Shown here: positions 14,019 through 35,415 of the stretch, one piece after another | Position numbering within the stretch: position 1 is the first letter of the stretch | Layout of the letters: each line of letters opens with the position of its first letter | From: Halobiforma nitratireducens JCM 10879 | GTDB lineage: Archaea > Halobacteriota > Halobacteria > Halobacteriales > Natrialbaceae | NCBI RefSeq assembly: GCF_000337895.1 | Contig: NZ_AOMA01000124.1 | Location: 1-53,356, forward strand | DNA: 53,356 bases | Direction of reading: 5' to 3' | Notes under the pieces: model-generated | Told to the model about the DNA's origin: nothing | Database searches by the model: none | The model's input: only the letters and a program-made list of their open reading frames with translations | Position numbers and translations under genes: made by a program

Positions 14019-15269
14019 TCAGGTCCGTGGCTCCCGAAGCGTCGCTTCCTCGCCTTCGGTGGTCGGAAACGGGTGCTGGTCCGAGTCTACGTTTAGGCTC
14101 CGGTCCGTGTCGTCGCTCCCGGTGTCGGCCGCTTGCTCCCACCTCTCGTCGGCGATCAGACACGACTCGAGTTCGTCCTGGAGCCGCCGCTCGTCGTACT
14201 CGGAGCCGATGAGGACGAACTCCGTCCGCCGGTCGCCGTAGTCGTCGTGCCACTCGAGGTAGGGTCGATTCGAGCGGTACAACGCTCGATCCACGTCGGG
14301 GAGCGTGGCAATCCACGGACCTCGGGCGGTCGCACGGACGGAGGGACCTGCCTGCGAGACGTCGATCTGGAGGTCGCTGCCGGCGAGCCAGACGGTTCCT
14401 TTCGAGCGAACGATGCCGTCGGGTAGGTCCCGGAGAAACGACGCGAACCGTTCGGGATGGAAGGGGCGACGTCGGCGGAAGACGAAGGAGTCGATGCCGT
14501 AGACGTCGTCGGGATGGCGGTGGTCGTCGTGGTGATCGTGTCCGTGGTCCTCGAGCACCCGCTGCCAGCCCGCCGACTCGTCGAATCGGTCCGGATCGAA
14601 CAGACCCACGCCGAGGAGCCGATCGGGATCGACCGCGGAGAACTCCGTCCGGATCGTCTCCGCGGTCGGACACAGGGCCTCGACGAGCGCCTCGGCCTCC
14701 TCGAGTTCCGCGTCCTCGCAGAGATCGGCCTTGTTGAGCAACACCACGTTCGCGAATTCGACCTGCTCGATCCAGAGGTCGGAGAGCGGTCGACTGGCTT
14801 CCCGGTCCTCGCCGCCGCGTCGTTCCGGCGTTCCATCGCCGGCGAAGGTGTCTCTGAACCGCCGCGTATCGAGGACGGTCACGAGTGCGTCGATTTCGTA
14901 CAGCCCAGCCACGCGCGAACGAGTCGTAAACAGCCGTGCGACGGGTGCGGGCTCGGAGATGCCGGAGGACTCGACGACCAGGTGGTCGAACTCCCGGTCG
15001 CGAGCCAGTCGAACGACCGCCGTCTCGAGGTCGTCTTGAAGCTCACAGCAGAGACAGCCGTTCGAGAGTTCGGCCACGTCGCCCGCAGGGTCCAGGTCCG
15101 ACCCCTCGGCGACGAGCTCCGCGTCCACGTTGACCGCGCCCATATCGTTGACCAGTACCGCCAGGTCGCGGCCGCCGGCGTTCGAAAGCAAGTGATTGAG
15201 CAGCGTCGTCTTGCCGGCACCGAGCCCGCCGGAGAGGACGGTGACGGGGATCGTGCTCGTCGGTGACAT
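14019..15269 (-). CDS. COG0523/CobW-family metallochaperone GTPase
   Basis: This is a 416-residue protein. The P-loop GGLGAGKTT spans 14-22, and the family-defining metal motif GCLCC has its cysteines at 72, 74 and 75. VVESSGISEP and the NKAD guanine motif (about residue 188) are present. A His/Asp-rich stretch near residue 245 (DHGHDHHDDHRH) precedes the CobW C-terminal domain, which is followed by an acidic tail. COG0523 proteins deliver zinc, cobalt or iron-type metals to client enzymes using GTP. No zinc-regulon partner lies next to it; its upstream neighbour is the rhodopsin-like gene, 81 nt away. Confidence 0.92.
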   Translation of the reverse strand: MSPTSTIPVTVLSGGLGAGKTTLLNHLLSNAGGRDLAVLVNDMGAVNVDAELVAEGSDLDPAGDVAELSNGCLCCELQDDLETAVVRLARDREFDHLVVESSGISEPAPVARLFTTRSRVAGLYEIDALVTVLDTRRFRDTFAGDGTPERRGGEDREASRPLSDLWIEQVEFANVVLLNKADLCEDAELEEAEALVEALCPTAETIRTEFSAVDPDRLLGVGLFDPDRFDESAGWQRVLEDHGHDHHDDHRHPDDVYGIDSFVFRRRRPFHPERFASFLRDLPDGIVRSKGTVWLAGSDLQIDVSQAGPSVRATARGPWIATLPDVDRALYRSNRPYLEWHDDYGDRRTEFVLIGSEYDERRLQDELESCLIADERWEQAADTGSDDTDRSLNVDSDQHPFPTTEGEEATLREPRT

Positions 15270-15350: not shown

Positions 15351-16109
15351 TCAGCTAGCTGTGTCCGTCCTCCCGGCGCTTTCCTCGCCGGAATCGGTCG
15401 CTCCGTCGTCCGTCGAGAACGGGAGCAGTCGTGTCGTGGCCGCGGTTTCCTCGAGTGCGGCTTCGTTTCGAACGACGAGTCCGCCGAACCCGACGAACAG
15501 GACGAGATCGACGTAGCTCGCGGCGAACTGGCCGACGAAGTTGTCGGTCAGCGCGAGGTTCTGAGCGGAGACGAGCCCGAGCAGGAGCAGCCCGGCCCAG
15601 GCGAGGAGGATCAGGTACTCGAGTTTTCGGTAGAGCAATCCGCGTCGTTCACTCACGGTCGCGGCAGTCCGTGCGAGCGGGCCGACGAGCAGGTAGACGA
15701 GTCCCACGAACGACAGGACCATGGTCAGGGAAATGACCGTCCCGGCCGTCCCGCCGAAGACCCAGCCCCCGAACGTAGCCCACAGCGTGCCCATGCTACA
15801 GACGAAGACGGCGGCGGTTCGTTTCGGTCCGGCGTCCGCGACCGCGCCGAGGACGTAGCTAATCCCCGCCCAGGCGACCGTGTAGCCGAGAAACCGGACG
15901 ACGGACTCGTCGTTTCCGGTCGTCTCGACGGTCCAGAGCCCCCGCGACATGAGCAGGTACGTCACAGTCATGGCACCGCAGGCGAGGACGGCCGCGTACC
16001 CGTACCGCCGGCTTGCCCGCCCGAGCCGCCGCGTCGCCAGCAGCAAGCCGACGGCGGCCGGCCCCAGCGCGGCGCTGGTCAGCAGGTAGATCGTCGTATC
16101 CTCGATCAT
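15351..16109 (-). CDS. Microbial rhodopsin homologue lacking the retinal-binding lysine
   Basis: This 252-residue, seven-helix protein aligns without large gaps to bacteriorhodopsin (BR) from helix A (about residue 6) to helix G. Conserved positions: Tyr51 (BR Tyr57), Arg72 (Arg82), Trp171 (Trp182), Asp201 (Asp212), and VGFGG after it (BR VGFG). The Schiff-base lysine BR Lys216 is Phe205 (codon TTC, 15495-15497), so several bases would have to be wrong for a sequencing error to explain it. The proton acceptor Asp85 is Gly75, the donor Asp96 is Val86, and BR Tyr185/Pro186 are Leu. Covalent retinal binding and proton pumping are therefore not expected. The start overlaps the stop of a 54-codon upstream ORF (ATGA). 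Function unknown; possibly a sensor or lipid/carotenoid-binding membrane protein. Confidence 0.85.
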   Translation of the reverse strand: MIEDTTIYLLTSAALGPAAVGLLLATRRLGRASRRYGYAAVLACGAMTVTYLLMSRGLWTVETTGNDESVVRFLGYTVAWAGISYVLGAVADAGPKRTAAVFVCSMGTLWATFGGWVFGGTAGTVISLTMVLSFVGLVYLLVGPLARTAATVSERRGLLYRKLEYLILLAWAGLLLLGLVSAQNLALTDNFVGQFAASYVDLVLFVGFGGLVVRNEAALEETAATTRLLPFSTDDGATDSGEESAGRTDTAS

Positions 16110-16365: not shown

Positions 16366-16662
16366 ATGACACTTGCCGAGCGGATCGAAACGGTTCGAAC
16401 CGCACTCGAGGAGTGGCTACGCGGCCTCTATCACGGCATGATCTCACATCCGGCCTACGAGAAGATCGAGGCCGAAGCCGAAGACCGCGAGGACGCGTTC
16501 ATGCTCGCCTGTTTCCCCGATGCGTTCGGCGTTCCCTCGCCGGTCTCGTACTACACGTCGGAGCTGCTGCCGTATCTCGAGGACGAGTTCGAGGCCTGGG
16601 AGCGGCGGCTGTGGGACCGGAGTACGCTCGTCGAACGAAAGGGACGGCAGTACCACTTCTGA
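16366..16662 (+). CDS. Conserved-type small protein ahead of ArsA-like ATPase
   Basis: This is a 98-residue soluble, acidic, mostly helical protein (MTLAERIETVRTALEEWLRG; FMLACFPDAFGVPSPVSYY; RSTLVERKGRQYHF). Its stop overlaps the start of the ArsA-type ATPase gene (TGATG), so the two are translationally coupled and probably act together, for example as a substrate adaptor or targeting partner. It is divergent from the rhodopsin-like operon, with both promoters inside 16271-16365. A T-rich box (catctttttg) lies about 30 nt before the ATG. No domain name can be given. Confidence 0.75.
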   Translation: MTLAERIETVRTALEEWLRGLYHGMISHPAYEKIEAEAEDREDAFMLACFPDAFGVPSPVSYYTSELLPYLEDEFEAWERRLWDRSTLVERKGRQYHF

Positions 16663-17624
16663 TGGACCGACACGTCTTTTTCGGCGGCAAAGGCGGCGTC
16701 GGAAAAACGACCGTGTCGGGAGCCTACGCGTACAAGTGTGCCCGGGACGGGCTCGAGACCCTCGCGGTGTCGACCGATCCGGCCCACTCGATGGGCGACC
16801 TCTTCGACCAATCCCTGGGGGACGAGCCGCGATCGATCGAGGGCGTCGACGGGCTGTCGGCGATGGAGATCGATCCCGACGAGGAGGTGTCTCGGCACCT
16901 GACGGAGGTCAAACGGAAGCTCTCGGATCAGGTCTCCGCGGCCATGGTCAACGAGGTCGACAGACAGATCGAGATGGCCCACGGCACTCCTGGGGCGTAC
17001 GAAGCCGCGCTGTTCGATCGGTTCGTCGACGTGATGCGCGAGCGCGACGAGTTCGACCGGATCGTCTTCGACACGTCACCGACCGGCGGCACCCTGCGGC
17101 TGCTCTCTTTGCCCGACTCTCTCGAGGGGTGGATCGACCGGCTGATGGCCAAGCGCAAGCAGAGCATCGATCTGTTCGAACGGGCCGCCCTGGGCGACCG
17201 GGAACCGAGACGCGTCCTCGAAGGTGATCCTGTCCTCGCCCACCTCCAGCAGCGCAAGGAGTTCTTCGAGTACGCCGGCGAGACGCTTCGTGAAGACGCG
17301 TCGTTTTACCTCGTGTTCAACCCGGATTCGCTGTCGATCCGCGAGACCGAACGGACGATCGACGAACTGGCTACACAGGCTCTCACGGTTCGTGGACTCG
17401 TCGCCAACCGACTCACGCCGGCTCCCGACCCCGACGAGGACGGACGCGGCGCACGCTACCTGCGTCGGCGGGTCGCCACCGAACGCGAGCGCCTCGAGAC
17501 GGCCCGTACCCGACTCGAGCCGCCGGTCGTCGCGGAGATCGAGAGCCGCGTCGAAGAGGTCCGTCAGGAACACCTGACGGCAGTCGCCGACGAACTCACG
17601 ATCGAAGCCGCAGTCGATGCCTAG
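16662..17624 (+). CDS. ArsA/GET3-family ATPase
   Basis: This is a 320-residue single-ATPase-domain protein with the deviant P-loop GKGGVGKTT at residues 9-17, STDPAHSMGDLF (switch I/A-loop) and DTSPTGGTLRLL (the ArsA signature, usually DTAPTGHTLRLL). It has one ATPase half, like archaeal Get3, rather than the duplicated bacterial ArsA. Such proteins target tail-anchored membrane proteins or drive oxyanion export. No arsenic genes are nearby, so the targeting role is favoured. The start at 16662 follows the TGATG overlap with the upstream gene. Confidence 0.9.
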   Translation: MDRHVFFGGKGGVGKTTVSGAYAYKCARDGLETLAVSTDPAHSMGDLFDQSLGDEPRSIEGVDGLSAMEIDPDEEVSRHLTEVKRKLSDQVSAAMVNEVDRQIEMAHGTPGAYEAALFDRFVDVMRERDEFDRIVFDTSPTGGTLRLLSLPDSLEGWIDRLMAKRKQSIDLFERAALGDREPRRVLEGDPVLAHLQQRKEFFEYAGETLREDASFYLVFNPDSLSIRETERTIDELATQALTVRGLVANRLTPAPDPDEDGRGARYLRRRVATERERLETARTRLEPPVVAEIESRVEEVRQEHLTAVADELTIEAAVDA

Positions 17625-17763: not shown

Positions 17764-19611
17764 ATGACAGGGGTAATCTGGATCGTGGTCCTGGTGGTCG
17801 GACTGTTCTCCGTGGGGTACGTGGGATACGGGCGATACCTTTCCCGGTTCGTCGAACTGGACGACTCCCGGGAAACGCCCGCTCACAAGTATCAAGACGG
17901 ACAGGAGTACGTACCGGCGAAAAAGCCGGTGTTGTTGGGGCATCACTTCTCGAGTATCGCCGGCGGTGCGCCGATCGCCGGTCCCATCACGGCGGCGTTC
18001 ATCTGGGGTTGGGTCCCGGCAGTGCTGTGGGTCGCCATCGGCAACCCGTTGATGGGAGCCGTTCACGACTTCATGGCGCTGTCCTCGAGTATCCGTCACG
18101 AGGGCAAGTCGATCGGGTTCATCATCGGGGAGTACATCGGCGAACGGGGGAAGAACATGTTCCTCTGGTTCGCCTTCCTCGTGATCGTTCTGGTGGTCGC
18201 GGTGTTCGCTCTCCTGGTGGCGGTCATCCTCGATGCGTATCCACAGGCGGCGACGGCGAGCCTGCTCTATATCGGGCTGGCGATCGTCTTCGGCATCTGG
18301 CTGTATCAGCTGGATCTCCCACTGATTCCAGGGACCGTCTTGTTCGTGGGCGGAATCTTCGCCAGCGTCTGGGTCGGCATCCAGTATCCGATCGCGCTGT
18401 TCGAGCCCAGCGGCTTCGCCGACGAGGCGTTTATCCTGTTTGCCGGTGAGGGTGCCTGGATACCCGGCGCGGAGCTGTTCGGCGCGAACACGGCGACGTG
18501 GATCATCGTCGGACTGGTGTACGCCGCGCTCGCGAGCGTCCTTCCAGTCTGGGTCCTGCTCCAGCCTCGGGACTACCTCTCGTCGTTTCTCCTCTACACG
18601 GGGGTCGGCGGGACCCTGCTCGCCGTCGTCGTCGGCACGCTACTGGGAACGACTCAGGGCGGCGCAGGGGCACTCGATATCCAGATACCGGCCTACACGA
18701 GCTTCATGGGCGGTCCGCTGGTCGGCGTTGCGATGCCGCTTTTCCCGTTGCTTTTCATCACGATCGCCTGTGGGACGATCAGCGGCTTTCACTCGCTGGT
18801 CTCCTCGGGGACGACGGCGAAACAGCTCAACACGGAAAGCGACGCCCGGACGATCGGCTACGGCGGCATGCTCGCCGAGGGGCTGCTCGCCGCGACCGCG
18901 CTCGCGGCCGTCTCGGTCGTCGCCTTGACCCCCGGCGGGGCCGTCCAGGGGATCGACGCGGCACTCCCCAACTTCGCCGAAGGTGGCGGTCTCATCCTCA
19001 CGAGCTTCGGTATCCCGCTTCTCATCGGCGAGGTGTTCATGGCGCTCGTGTTCGTCAGCTTCCTGTTGACGAGCCTCGACACCGCGTTACGCCTGGGCCG
19101 GTACATGGTCGAGGAACTGATCGGGACGCCGGAAACCGACGCTCAGGAGAGGGCAGCAAACAAGTACGTCAACACCAGCATCGCCACGCTCGCGGCGTTC
19201 GTGCTCGTCTCGAGCGGCCAGTGGGAACAGCTCTGGCCCCTGTTCGGCGGTGCGAACCAGCTGCTGGCTGCTCTCGCGTTGCTGACCGCGACCGTCTGGT
19301 TGGCCAACTGGAAGGAGACGAAGCAGCTGCTGACCACGGGCGTTCCGGTCGTCGTGATGGTGATCGTCACGATCTGTGGACTGCTGTGGATCGCTCTGGT
19401 CGAGAACGTGCAACGGACGTTCCTCGATAGCGCCTGGCTAGCCGAGGCAACCGCGTTACAGATCGTCTCGAGCGGTCTCCGACTCGTGTTGGCACTGGTG
19501 TTGATCCTACTGGCGGTGGCGATCATCAGAATGGGCTACGAGAACCTCCAGTCGGCACGTGACGGTCTGCTGTCGACGAACGAAGCCTCAGTCGGGTCGG
19601 ACGACGACTAA
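17764..19611 (+). CDS. cstA: CstA-family carbon starvation transporter
   Basis: This is a 615-residue polytopic membrane protein with about 16-18 hydrophobic helices. Family landmarks are GHHFSSIAGGAPIAGPI (about residues 59-75), NPLMGAVHDFMALSSSIRHEGKS, CGTISGFHSLVSSGTTAKQ and FGGANQLLAALAL. CstA proteins import peptides and/or pyruvate under carbon limitation. No sensor partner gene is adjacent. An oligo-T run follows the stop codon. The ATG at 17764 is downstream of an AT-rich box near 17725-17735. Confidence 0.94.
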   Translation: MTGVIWIVVLVVGLFSVGYVGYGRYLSRFVELDDSRETPAHKYQDGQEYVPAKKPVLLGHHFSSIAGGAPIAGPITAAFIWGWVPAVLWVAIGNPLMGAVHDFMALSSSIRHEGKSIGFIIGEYIGERGKNMFLWFAFLVIVLVVAVFALLVAVILDAYPQAATASLLYIGLAIVFGIWLYQLDLPLIPGTVLFVGGIFASVWVGIQYPIALFEPSGFADEAFILFAGEGAWIPGAELFGANTATWIIVGLVYAALASVLPVWVLLQPRDYLSSFLLYTGVGGTLLAVVVGTLLGTTQGGAGALDIQIPAYTSFMGGPLVGVAMPLFPLLFITIACGTISGFHSLVSSGTTAKQLNTESDARTIGYGGMLAEGLLAATALAAVSVVALTPGGAVQGIDAALPNFAEGGGLILTSFGIPLLIGEVFMALVFVSFLLTSLDTALRLGRYMVEELIGTPETDAQERAANKYVNTSIATLAAFVLVSSGQWEQLWPLFGGANQLLAALALLTATVWLANWKETKQLLTTGVPVVVMVIVTICGLLWIALVENVQRTFLDSAWLAEATALQIVSSGLRLVLALVLILLAVAIIRMGYENLQSARDGLLSTNEASVGSDDD

Positions 19612-33691: not shown

Positions 33692-33786
33692 CGACGCTCT
33701 CTTTCGTAGGCCGACGGCGACGAGTACGGAGCTCCGGCGACGGGGGTCCGTACCTGTTATTGTCGTCTACGTGTTACCCTCACGCG

Positions 33787-35415
33787 ATGGACCTCCGGGA
33801 CGACCTCGCCACAGCAACACTCGAGACGCTCCCGATTACGGTCGCTGTCCTCGACGCCGAGGGGAAAATCCTGTTGACGAACCAGTCGTGGCGCGAGTTC
33901 AACCCCGAGGACGGCGACCACGTCGGCGTCGACTACGTTGCAACCGCGGAGATGGTCGAAGATGACGACGAACACGCCCGCCAGGCGGTCGAGGGGCTCG
34001 AGTCGGTTCTCGACGGGAATCGGGAGAGCTTCGAGCTAGAGTATCCCTGCCACACGCCCGACGAGAAACGGTGGTTCCTGATGCGAGCCTTCCGGTTTAC
34101 CGTCGACGACGACCCGCGGGTCTCGGTCGTCCACCTCGAGATCACGGACCGGAAACTGGCGGAGATCGACGCCGAGTCGGCCGCCGAGCGACTCCGCGAG
34201 GAACAGCGGATGCTCGAACACGTCCTCGAGCGAGTCGACGGGCTCGTCCAGGACGTCACCGACGCTGCGGTCGGGGCGGCCAGCCGCGACGAGATCGAAC
34301 GGCGAGTCTGTCGACGACTCGCCGAGACGGACCCTTACGTGCTCTCCTGGGTCGGCCGGGTCGACGTCACGACCCGCCGGGTCTCACCCCGCGAGTGGGC
34401 CGGCCGCGACGACGTTCCCCTCGAGGACGACGAACTCGTGCTCTCCTCCGACGAGACGCACCCGGCCGTACAGGCGCTCGACGAGGGGCAACCCCGCGTC
34501 GTGCAGGACGTTACGGCGTTCGATCACGCCGACCGTTGGTGGCCGACCGGCGCGGGAGAGCTGTTCCAGTCCGTCGCTGCGATCCCGCTCGAGTACGGCG
34601 ACGTCACCTACGGCGTCCTCGTGCTGTTCGCCGAGGAGGTCGACGCCTTCGATCAGCGGGAACTGCTCGTCCTCGAGTCGCTTGCCGGGACGGTGGCGAC
34701 GGCGATGAACGCGATCGAAGCCCGGCGCATGCTCACGACCGAGACGGTCGTCGAACTCGAGGCGGCGATCGAGGATTCCTCGCTGTTCGTGACGGCGCTT
34801 GCCAACCGGATCGGTGCGACGGTGACATACCGCGGGCTGACCTACGACCGTGACGGCACTGCACTGACGGTCTTCTACGTGAACGAAACCGGCGGCGTCG
34901 CGGACGTTGCGGACGATCTCGAGGGAGTCGAGGACGCGTCAGTCCTCTCGGAGTACGAGGAAGGAACGCTGCTCGAGCTGGCGCTGTCGGACGGAATCGT
35001 CGCTGCCCTCGCCGATCACGGTGGCGTGATCCAGCGGTTCGACGCGACACCGGAGGATCGGGTCGGCGACCTCGTGTTGCAGTTGCCAAACGGACAGTCC
35101 GCACGGTCGGTGTACGACCTGCTCGAGGAACGTTACGATCGGGCGGAGCTCATCAGCTACCACGAGTCGGATCGGCCGACGCGAACGCTGCGGGACGTGG
35201 CTGCGGAACTGGACTCGAAACTGACCGACCGACAGGAGATGGCGCTTCGCAAGTCCTTCTACGCCGACTACTTCGAGTGGCCCCGTGGCGTCTCCGGGGA
35301 GGAGCTGGCCGAATCGATGGACGTGTCCCGATCGACGTTCCACCAGCATCTCCGGGCCGCACAGCGAAAACTGCTCGAGGAACTCTTTGCCGTCGACCCC
35401 ACTAGTGAGGGCTAG
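33787..35415 (+). CDS. Bacterio-opsin activator (Bat)-like transcription regulator
   Basis: This is a 542-residue multidomain regulator: PAS domain (about 8-125; LPITVAVLDAEGKILLTNQSW), linker helix, GAF domain (about 160-310; FDQRELLVLESLAGTVATA), bacterio-opsin-activator-specific domain (about 315-475), and C-terminal HTH_10 (LTDRQEMALRKSFYADYFEW; EELAESMDVSRSTFHQHLRA). In Halobacterium, Bat is an oxygen/light-responsive activator of bop and crtB1. Here crtB starts 52 nt downstream, and a bop-UAS-like motif overlaps the bat 3' end, so direct control of crtB is likely. A ttattg box about 27 nt before the ATG at 33787 supports a leaderless start. Confidence 0.9.
   Translation: MDLRDDLATATLETLPITVAVLDAEGKILLTNQSWREFNPEDGDHVGVDYVATAEMVEDDDEHARQAVEGLESVLDGNRESFELEYPCHTPDEKRWFLMRAFRFTVDDDPRVSVVHLEITDRKLAEIDAESAAERLREEQRMLEHVLERVDGLVQDVTDAAVGAASRDEIERRVCRRLAETDPYVLSWVGRVDVTTRRVSPREWAGRDDVPLEDDELVLSSDETHPAVQALDEGQPRVVQDVTAFDHADRWWPTGAGELFQSVAAIPLEYGDVTYGVLVLFAEEVDAFDQRELLVLESLAGTVATAMNAIEARRMLTTETVVELEAAIEDSSLFVTALANRIGATVTYRGLTYDRDGTALTVFYVNETGGVADVADDLEGVEDASVLSEYEEGTLLELALSDGIVAALADHGGVIQRFDATPEDRVGDLVLQLPNGQSARSVYDLLEERYDRAELISYHESDRPTRTLRDVAAELDSKLTDRQEMALRKSFYADYFEWPRGVSGEELAESMDVSRSTFHQHLRAAQRKLLEELFAVDPTSEG
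35396..35410 (+). promoter_or_regulatory. Bat-type upstream activating sequence (UAS) before crtB
   Basis: ACCCCACTAGTGAGG matches the published bop UAS consensus, ACCcnactagTTnGG as I recall it, at all but one defined position (G for the second T). It overlaps the last codons of the Bat-like gene and lies 8 nt upstream of the crtB TATA box, the same arrangement as in bop. Binding by Bat is inferred. Confidence 0.65.

Follow-up and report, generated by a model that had tools for sequence, protein, structure and literature searches.

The window analyzed here, the whole stretch of 53,356 nucleotides of Halobiforma nitratireducens JCM 10879 (contig NZ_AOMA01000124.1), encodes an opsin-related protein (ORP) with the seven-helix fold of the microbial rhodopsins and a phenylalanine in place of the lysine that forms the Schiff base with retinal. 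The protein is, with near certainty, a group B haloarchaeal ORP related to sensory rhodopsin II (SRII). The observation is real and the family is not new, the protein being a further member of one set out in the text of Becker et al. in 2016 (PMC4915679). For its function, the reading preferred here, at a probability of roughly 0.5, is that of a retinal-free receptor for a stimulus other than light, which would act on a chemotaxis transducer encoded apart from it. The features discussed are listed in Table 1.

Table 1. Features of the window around the ORP gene (positions in the window; that of Phe205 was counted from the ORF start)
Feature	Position	Strand	Remarks
Group B opsin-related protein (ORP) of seven-helix rhodopsin fold, lacking the retinal lysine	15351..16109	(-)	252 aa
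Phe205 codon at the Schiff-base lysine site (SRII Lys205, bacteriorhodopsin Lys216)	15495..15497	(-)	From the SRII alignment
CobW-type GTPase	14019..15269	(-)	81 bp downstream of the ORP, same strand; Pfam cobW, CobW_C
Conserved small protein, first gene of the divergent block	16366..16662	(+)	98 aa; no Pfam family
ArsA-type ATPase	16662..17624	(+)	
Carbon starvation protein CstA	17764..19611	(+)	
Bat-like protein	33760-35415		PAS, GAF, BAT, HTH_10
Phytoene synthase	35468		

Fold and Retinal Site

The ORF is free of internal stops and scores 28.1 bits against the Pfam Bac_rhodopsin profile (cut-off 24.6; E 1.7e-6), with residues 6-214 aligned to profile positions 5-219 of 224. A sequence search of the PDB returned Natronomonas pharaonis SRII as the best matches (top E 5e-11); a Rubrobacter rhodopsin (8e-4) and a Haloquadratum bacteriorhodopsin (1.4e-3) came next. 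Judged by sequence, the relationship to rhodopsins is beyond chance. NCBIfam gave no match near a cut-off, its one sub-threshold hit (13 bits where the cut-off is 300; E 0.043) being taken as chance, and a scan of viral contigs with the window protein as single query, by which only close relatives are detectable, found no copies. An AlphaFold model built from 12 input sequences (mean pLDDT 82.3, pTM 0.80) matched SRII structures at each of the first 13 Foldseek ranks, with TM-scores by target length of 0.80-0.91 and 26-28% identity. Profile and predicted structure alike place the protein inside the type 1 (microbial) rhodopsin fold. The collinear homology that an earlier note on this DNA had drawn with bacteriorhodopsin therefore stands, but the nearest relative by both sequence and structure is SRII.

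The alignment with SRII of N. pharaonis (PDB 3qap, 5jjj, and 1h2s) extends over SRII residues 5-219 without an internal gap, with 59 of the 215 known residues identical (27%), and the two proteins share fold and numbering together with Tyr51, Arg72, Trp171, Tyr199, Asp201, and the Gly207-Phe208-Gly209 motif. In contrast, Lys205, Asp75, Trp76, Thr80, Tyr174, Pro175, and Trp178 of SRII are all replaced in the window protein. The three substitutions first read against bacteriorhodopsin (Phe at the place of Lys216, Gly at that of Asp85, and Val at that of Asp96) were upheld, SRII Lys205, Asp75, and Phe86 corresponding to Phe205, Gly75, and Val86. Position 86 is the place of bacteriorhodopsin Asp96. 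Lysine occurs in the whole protein only at positions 96 and 162, so no lysine of helix G can replace the Schiff-base lysine at the pocket, an arrangement by which the earlier reading would have fallen. Because the Schiff-base lysine that defines a functional type 1 rhodopsin is missing, covalent binding of retinal has been lost, as had been supposed; this matches the spectra reported in the text of PMC4915679, where two other purified ORPs supplied with retinal gave no band at 480-580 nm and other chromophores were left open.

Beyond the lysine, 18 pocket positions, selected with the SRII and bacteriorhodopsin structures in view, were compared with SRII: four are the same (Ile83, Phe134, Trp171, and Asp201) and 14 differ, among them W76Y, T80W, F127S, Y174L, P175L, and W178G. 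Several of the new residues recur throughout the 53 lysine-less rows of the family alignment described below, namely Tyr76 in 52, Gly75 in 48, Gly178 in 47, Leu174 in 46, and Trp80 in 42. As far as the alignment can tell, the retinal pocket has been rebuilt, which is more than a point change. Phenylalanine at 205 is found in the window protein and in one of its four orthologues (L059); since the other three have leucine, the Phe as such probably carries no particular significance. At SRII position 162, the cytoplasmic end of helix F, all 53 lysine-less rows carry a basic residue (46 Lys and 7 Arg), and 7 of the 12 lysine-bearing rows carry Ser.

Family Membership and Phylogeny

The family alignment comprised 64 rhodopsin ORFs and the SRII reference, the latter counted among the 12 lysine-bearing rows; two rows that are second copies (L056 and L074, of L047 and L053) and a 76-residue fragment (L084) were removed, and a third match in genome G061, at 28% identity, lies outside the aligned set. 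Over these 65 rows, which are related sequences and not independent ones, the lysine position is occupied by Lys in 12, Leu in 32, Val in 7, Phe in 6, Ile in 3, and Arg in 5. In a maximum-likelihood tree computed without the lysine column and rooted on the two non-sensory lysine rhodopsins of the H. nitratireducens genome, a branch with 100/100 support separates the 53 lysine-less rows from the 12 others, with the lysine-less side adjoining the SRII-type rows. The rows with a hydrophobic residue at 205 form one group, into which a single Arg row, L105, on a very long branch, also falls. A clade of five rows (100/98) unites the window protein with its four orthologues; the nearest row from outside the genus, L048 of Natronorubrum halalkaliphilum, joins it with the weaker support of 96/67. 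The phylogeny proposed as a check thus sets the window protein within the lysine-less haloarchaeal opsins, nearest the sensory rhodopsins.

In the text of Becker et al. (PLoS One; PMC4915679), the lysine is missing from 48 of 170 haloarchaeal opsins, which fall into a group A, with Arg at its place, and a group B, with Leu or another hydrophobic residue. Group B is there described as keeping Tyr51, Arg72, Asp189, and Tyr199, with Gly for Trp178, Leu for Tyr174, and Ser or Thr at 127. Set against that text, the window protein has every one of these features (a hydrophobic residue at 205, Ser127, Leu174, Gly178, Tyr51, Arg72, Asp189, and Tyr199); SRII is likewise the nearest canonical relative, and the genera covered by that article include Halobiforma and Natronobacterium, a likeness at the level of genus. 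The one departure is Phe at the lysine position, for which the article names leucine or another hydrophobic residue. PMC4915679 gives residue 189 of N. pharaonis SRII as Asp; the PDB sequence has Thr there. With group A, described in the same text as having Asp at 76 and Met at 108 and as not keeping Tyr51 and Arg72, the window protein shares the missing lysine and Tyr199 but differs in keeping Tyr51 and Arg72 and in its hydrophobic residue 205. It is not an SRII, having neither Lys205 nor the Asp75 counter-ion nor, by a search within 3 kb, a transducer gene alongside.

Two kinds of Arg205 protein were also present among the aligned rows. Four lysine-less proteins that overlap an MCP gene (L101:4913-5695, L102:4988-5770, L103:4989-5756, and L104:4994-5782) keep Tyr51 and Arg72, have an acidic residue at 75 (Asp, Asp, Asp, and Glu, respectively), Tyr174, and Trp108, and form a clade (96/87) beside the remaining lysine-less rows; they are perhaps a third ORP type, because they fit neither group A nor group B as described in the text of Becker et al. 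The very divergent L105:5030-5764, which also overlaps an MCP gene, has Arg205, Ser51, Asp72, Asp76, and Met108 and resembles the published group A, of which it is the sole such row in the aligned set; it scores 25.2 bits against Bac_rhodopsin, and its branch length of 2.95 leaves its place in the tree unsure.

Lysine-less rhodopsins had been noted as reported in some other microbes. Such opsins do exist elsewhere, but this understated the matter, the haloarchaeal ones having been described in 2016 (PMC4915679). The bacterial Rh-noK proteins and the freshwater FArhodopsins are, in the text of PMC10308929, type 1 rhodopsins that likewise lack the retinal lysine; unlike the window protein, they are related to xanthorhodopsin or proteorhodopsin, occur in tandem with a pump or beside flotillin, and stand outside the present tree. 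According to the text of PMC4915679, non-haloarchaeal lysine-less opsins fall outside the haloarchaeal ORP clade.

Linked, Unlinked, and Orphan Transducers

A search with one MCP query within 3 kb of each row, which divergent or distant MCPs may escape, found an MCP beside 33 of the 53 lysine-less rows; in PMC4915679, as its text has it, transducers adjoin 17 of 32 group B genes. Tyr199, cited in that article as a transducer contact in SRII, is present in all 53 lysine-less rows, in the 33 with an MCP within 3 kb as in the 20 without, and is absent from the two non-sensory lysine rhodopsins of the H. nitratireducens genome. A further candidate marker of linkage, Asp189, was set aside as too weak, being found in 28 of the 33 linked and 14 of the 20 unlinked rows. 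The conservation of Tyr199 suits a receptor that talks to a transducer. The earlier note had offered a sensor, a scaffold, or a carotenoid or lipid binder as possible roles; of these, sensor is best supported, by the 33 of 53 rows near an MCP and by the branch beside the SRII-type rows, and no support was found for the other two.

No such neighbor was found for the window protein itself. Within 3 kb of the orthologue, no MCP was found by this search in any of the five genus genomes, which counts against a transducer partner; the setting differs in this from that of SRII, and a place beside a HAMP/MCP transducer is not required of group B. The replacement of Asp189 by Gly in two of the five orthologues counts against a receptor for an unlinked transducer as well. 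Outside the genus, the ORP of the nearest row (L048) adjoins an HtrII-like MCP. The locus as a whole (L048:9923-13361) reads ORP-MCP-ORP on one strand, two different lysine-less opsins flanking a single HtrII-like transducer.

HtrII-like is a label of this report for proteins with a HAMP and an MCP domain, without a Pfam sensor domain (one protein scanned), and with two N-terminal hydrophobic stretches recognized by eye. A search with the first 160 residues of the ORP-linked transducer from Natronorubrum recovered intact HtrII-like transducers in G061 (L161:5098-6759) and G013 (L160:4534-6162), at 62 and 63% identity over the query; for about 4.5-5.8 kb to each side of them there is no ORP. 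Against a free transducer, a different ORP comes after the counterpart transducer in G039 and G058, and a second HtrII-like transducer of G013 has an ORP of its own. As G039 is a close relative of G061, its ORP after the counterpart transducer may have been lost from the corresponding position in G061. The H. nitratireducens assembly, which is 85% complete, yielded no transducer over the full 160-residue query length, a result that also counts against the reading; seven of its eight matches start at query residue 54 or later, on the HAMP side, and the eighth, on contig C111, covers query residues 5-53 only, in an ORF near the contig end. This C111 ORF was rejected as the cognate transducer, as it looks different by eye, with a long stretch after the first hydrophobic segment.

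Taken together, these results favor a receptor that works without retinal and through an unlinked transducer, because Tyr199 is universal among the lysine-less rows, the nearest row from outside the genus lies beside an HtrII-like MCP, and unpaired transducers occur in G061 and G013. A ligand or physical cue in the remodeled pocket would move helices F and G, and this change could then be passed to a partner. The likeliest partner would be an HtrII-like chemotaxis transducer whose gene lies at another place in the genome, given the retention of Tyr199 and the frequency of MCPs near lysine-less rows. A stronger version, that the receptors and transducers of the genus are interchangeable and that unpaired HtrII-like transducers, such as those in G061 and G013, are served in trans by the window clade's orphan ORP, is considered unlikely. 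Judged by titles and the text of PMC4915679, no published ligand or output for ORPs was found.

Gene Neighborhood

In all five genus genomes, the ORP lies in a block with a spermidine synthase-like gene (Spe), CobW, the 98-residue small gene, and CstA, the four genes compared across genomes; ArsA was scored for the window only. In G000, G061, and G039 the ORP is flanked by CobW and the small gene, and in G058 and G013 it lies beyond CobW, from which two conserved ORFs and about 1 kb separate it. The ORP has thus switched sides of CobW inside one genus (L056-L059) while remaining within this block. Matches to the small protein were obtained in 48 of the 61 family genomes, the own genome included, at 74-92% identity in the others; its gene is usually divergent from CobW, and in the window ArsA and CstA come after it.

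This setting is the ground for the strongest competitor of the transducer reading, a receptor without a role in motility that would relay a stress signal to a partner other than an MCP, possibly one linked to CobW, ArsA, and CstA and hence to metal supply or carbon starvation. The orthologue has stayed in the block in five of five genomes, CobW follows it on the same strand in three of them, and the text of PMC4915679 mentions metal chaperones and carbon starvation genes as neighbors of several unlinked ORPs, a setting like that of the window ORP, which has CobW and CstA nearby and no adjoining transducer. However, among the 37 genomes without an ORP match the small gene is present in 26, and in 23 of these 26 CobW is divergent from it within 1 kb; the block therefore does not need the ORP, and CobW, part of an older block, would be at most a candidate partner. 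The position of the ORP in G058 and G013, on the far side of CobW, tells against such a partnership as well. An operon of opsin and CobW as a receptor-GTPase pair was set aside on the same two counts, and the block says little about ORP function. A non-MCP receptor is accordingly given less than an even chance and is on balance rather unlikely, and the receptor for an unlinked transducer is preferred to it.

The earlier note had also pointed to a Bat homologue and carotenoid genes in the same stretch. Both the Bat-like gene and the phytoene synthase gene are real, about 18 and 19 kb from the ORP, but the proximity is not conserved: phytoene synthase lies 19-29 kb from the ORP in three of the five genus genomes and 0.57 and 1.37 Mb away in the other two, and a carotenoid-gene link was rejected as a general feature. 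The product of the encoded carotenoid enzymes is presumably bacterioruberin.

Distribution, Selection, and Further Alternatives

A match at E 1e-5 or better was obtained in 24 of the 61 sampled genomes of the family; with rows assigned to genomes by hand, 23 of the 24 hold at least one lysine-less protein, and G007 has only a lysine protein. The orthologue is present in all five sampled genus genomes, the own one included, with 62-72% identity in the other four, and two to five lysine-less copies were counted per genus genome among the aligned rows. Across the five orthologues, none of which has an internal stop, NG86 dN/dS is 0.23-0.34 in all ten pairs (pair dS 0.04 to 1.07; YN00 gave values for three of the pairs and none for seven). 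The dN/dS values, proposed as a check along with a count of orthologues, thus show the gene to be under constraint by purifying selection. In the three closest pairs (window, L056, and L057), the ORP value of 0.28-0.33 exceeds those of CobW (0.18-0.23), CstA (0.07-0.17), Spe (0.17-0.21), and the small gene (0-0.08), and its constraint is perhaps lower than that of its neighbors; among the wider pairs, the values for CobW (0.25-0.28) and for CstA (0.27-0.34) point to no tighter constraint than that on the ORP.

The looser constraint in the closest pairs, together with the absence from G061 of another ORP, that beside the transducer in G039, would fit a relic in slow decay or a protein with a merely structural role in the membrane. 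Against this stand an ORF that is intact in five of five genomes, dN/dS that never exceeds 0.34, neighbors that are equally loose in the wider pairs, and Arg72, Phe73, Gly75, Tyr76, and Tyr199, which are invariant in a 21-row alignment; decay is regarded as improbable.

Modulation of a canonical rhodopsin through mixed oligomers, an idea given for bacterial Rh-noK in the text of PMC10308929, is still less credible. The own genome does encode two lysine rhodopsins and probably makes retinal, since two of its proteins match the Brp/Blh-type family BCD, but those rhodopsins lie on other contigs, the ORPs branch beside sensory and not pump-like rows, and eight species have ORPs without canonical opsins (PMC4915679, in its text). 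Equally hard to credit is a non-covalent binder of retinal, a carotenoid such as bacterioruberin, or a lipid, for which the retained fold and the encoded retinal and carotenoid enzymes might speak, against the 14 changed positions of the 18 compared (Trp80 and Gly178 among them), the reported spectra of two other ORPs, and the distance of phytoene synthase from the ORP in two of five genomes.

Implications

The window protein belongs to a conserved branch without adjoining transducers, and it points to the unpaired HtrII-like transducers as candidate partners. The ORP family looks like a photoreceptor fold turned, in prokaryotes, into a sensor of something else. If the interchangeability of receptors and transducers within the genus is true, the ORPs would form a receptor module that works without retinal and exchanges its outputs in the manner of GPCRs.
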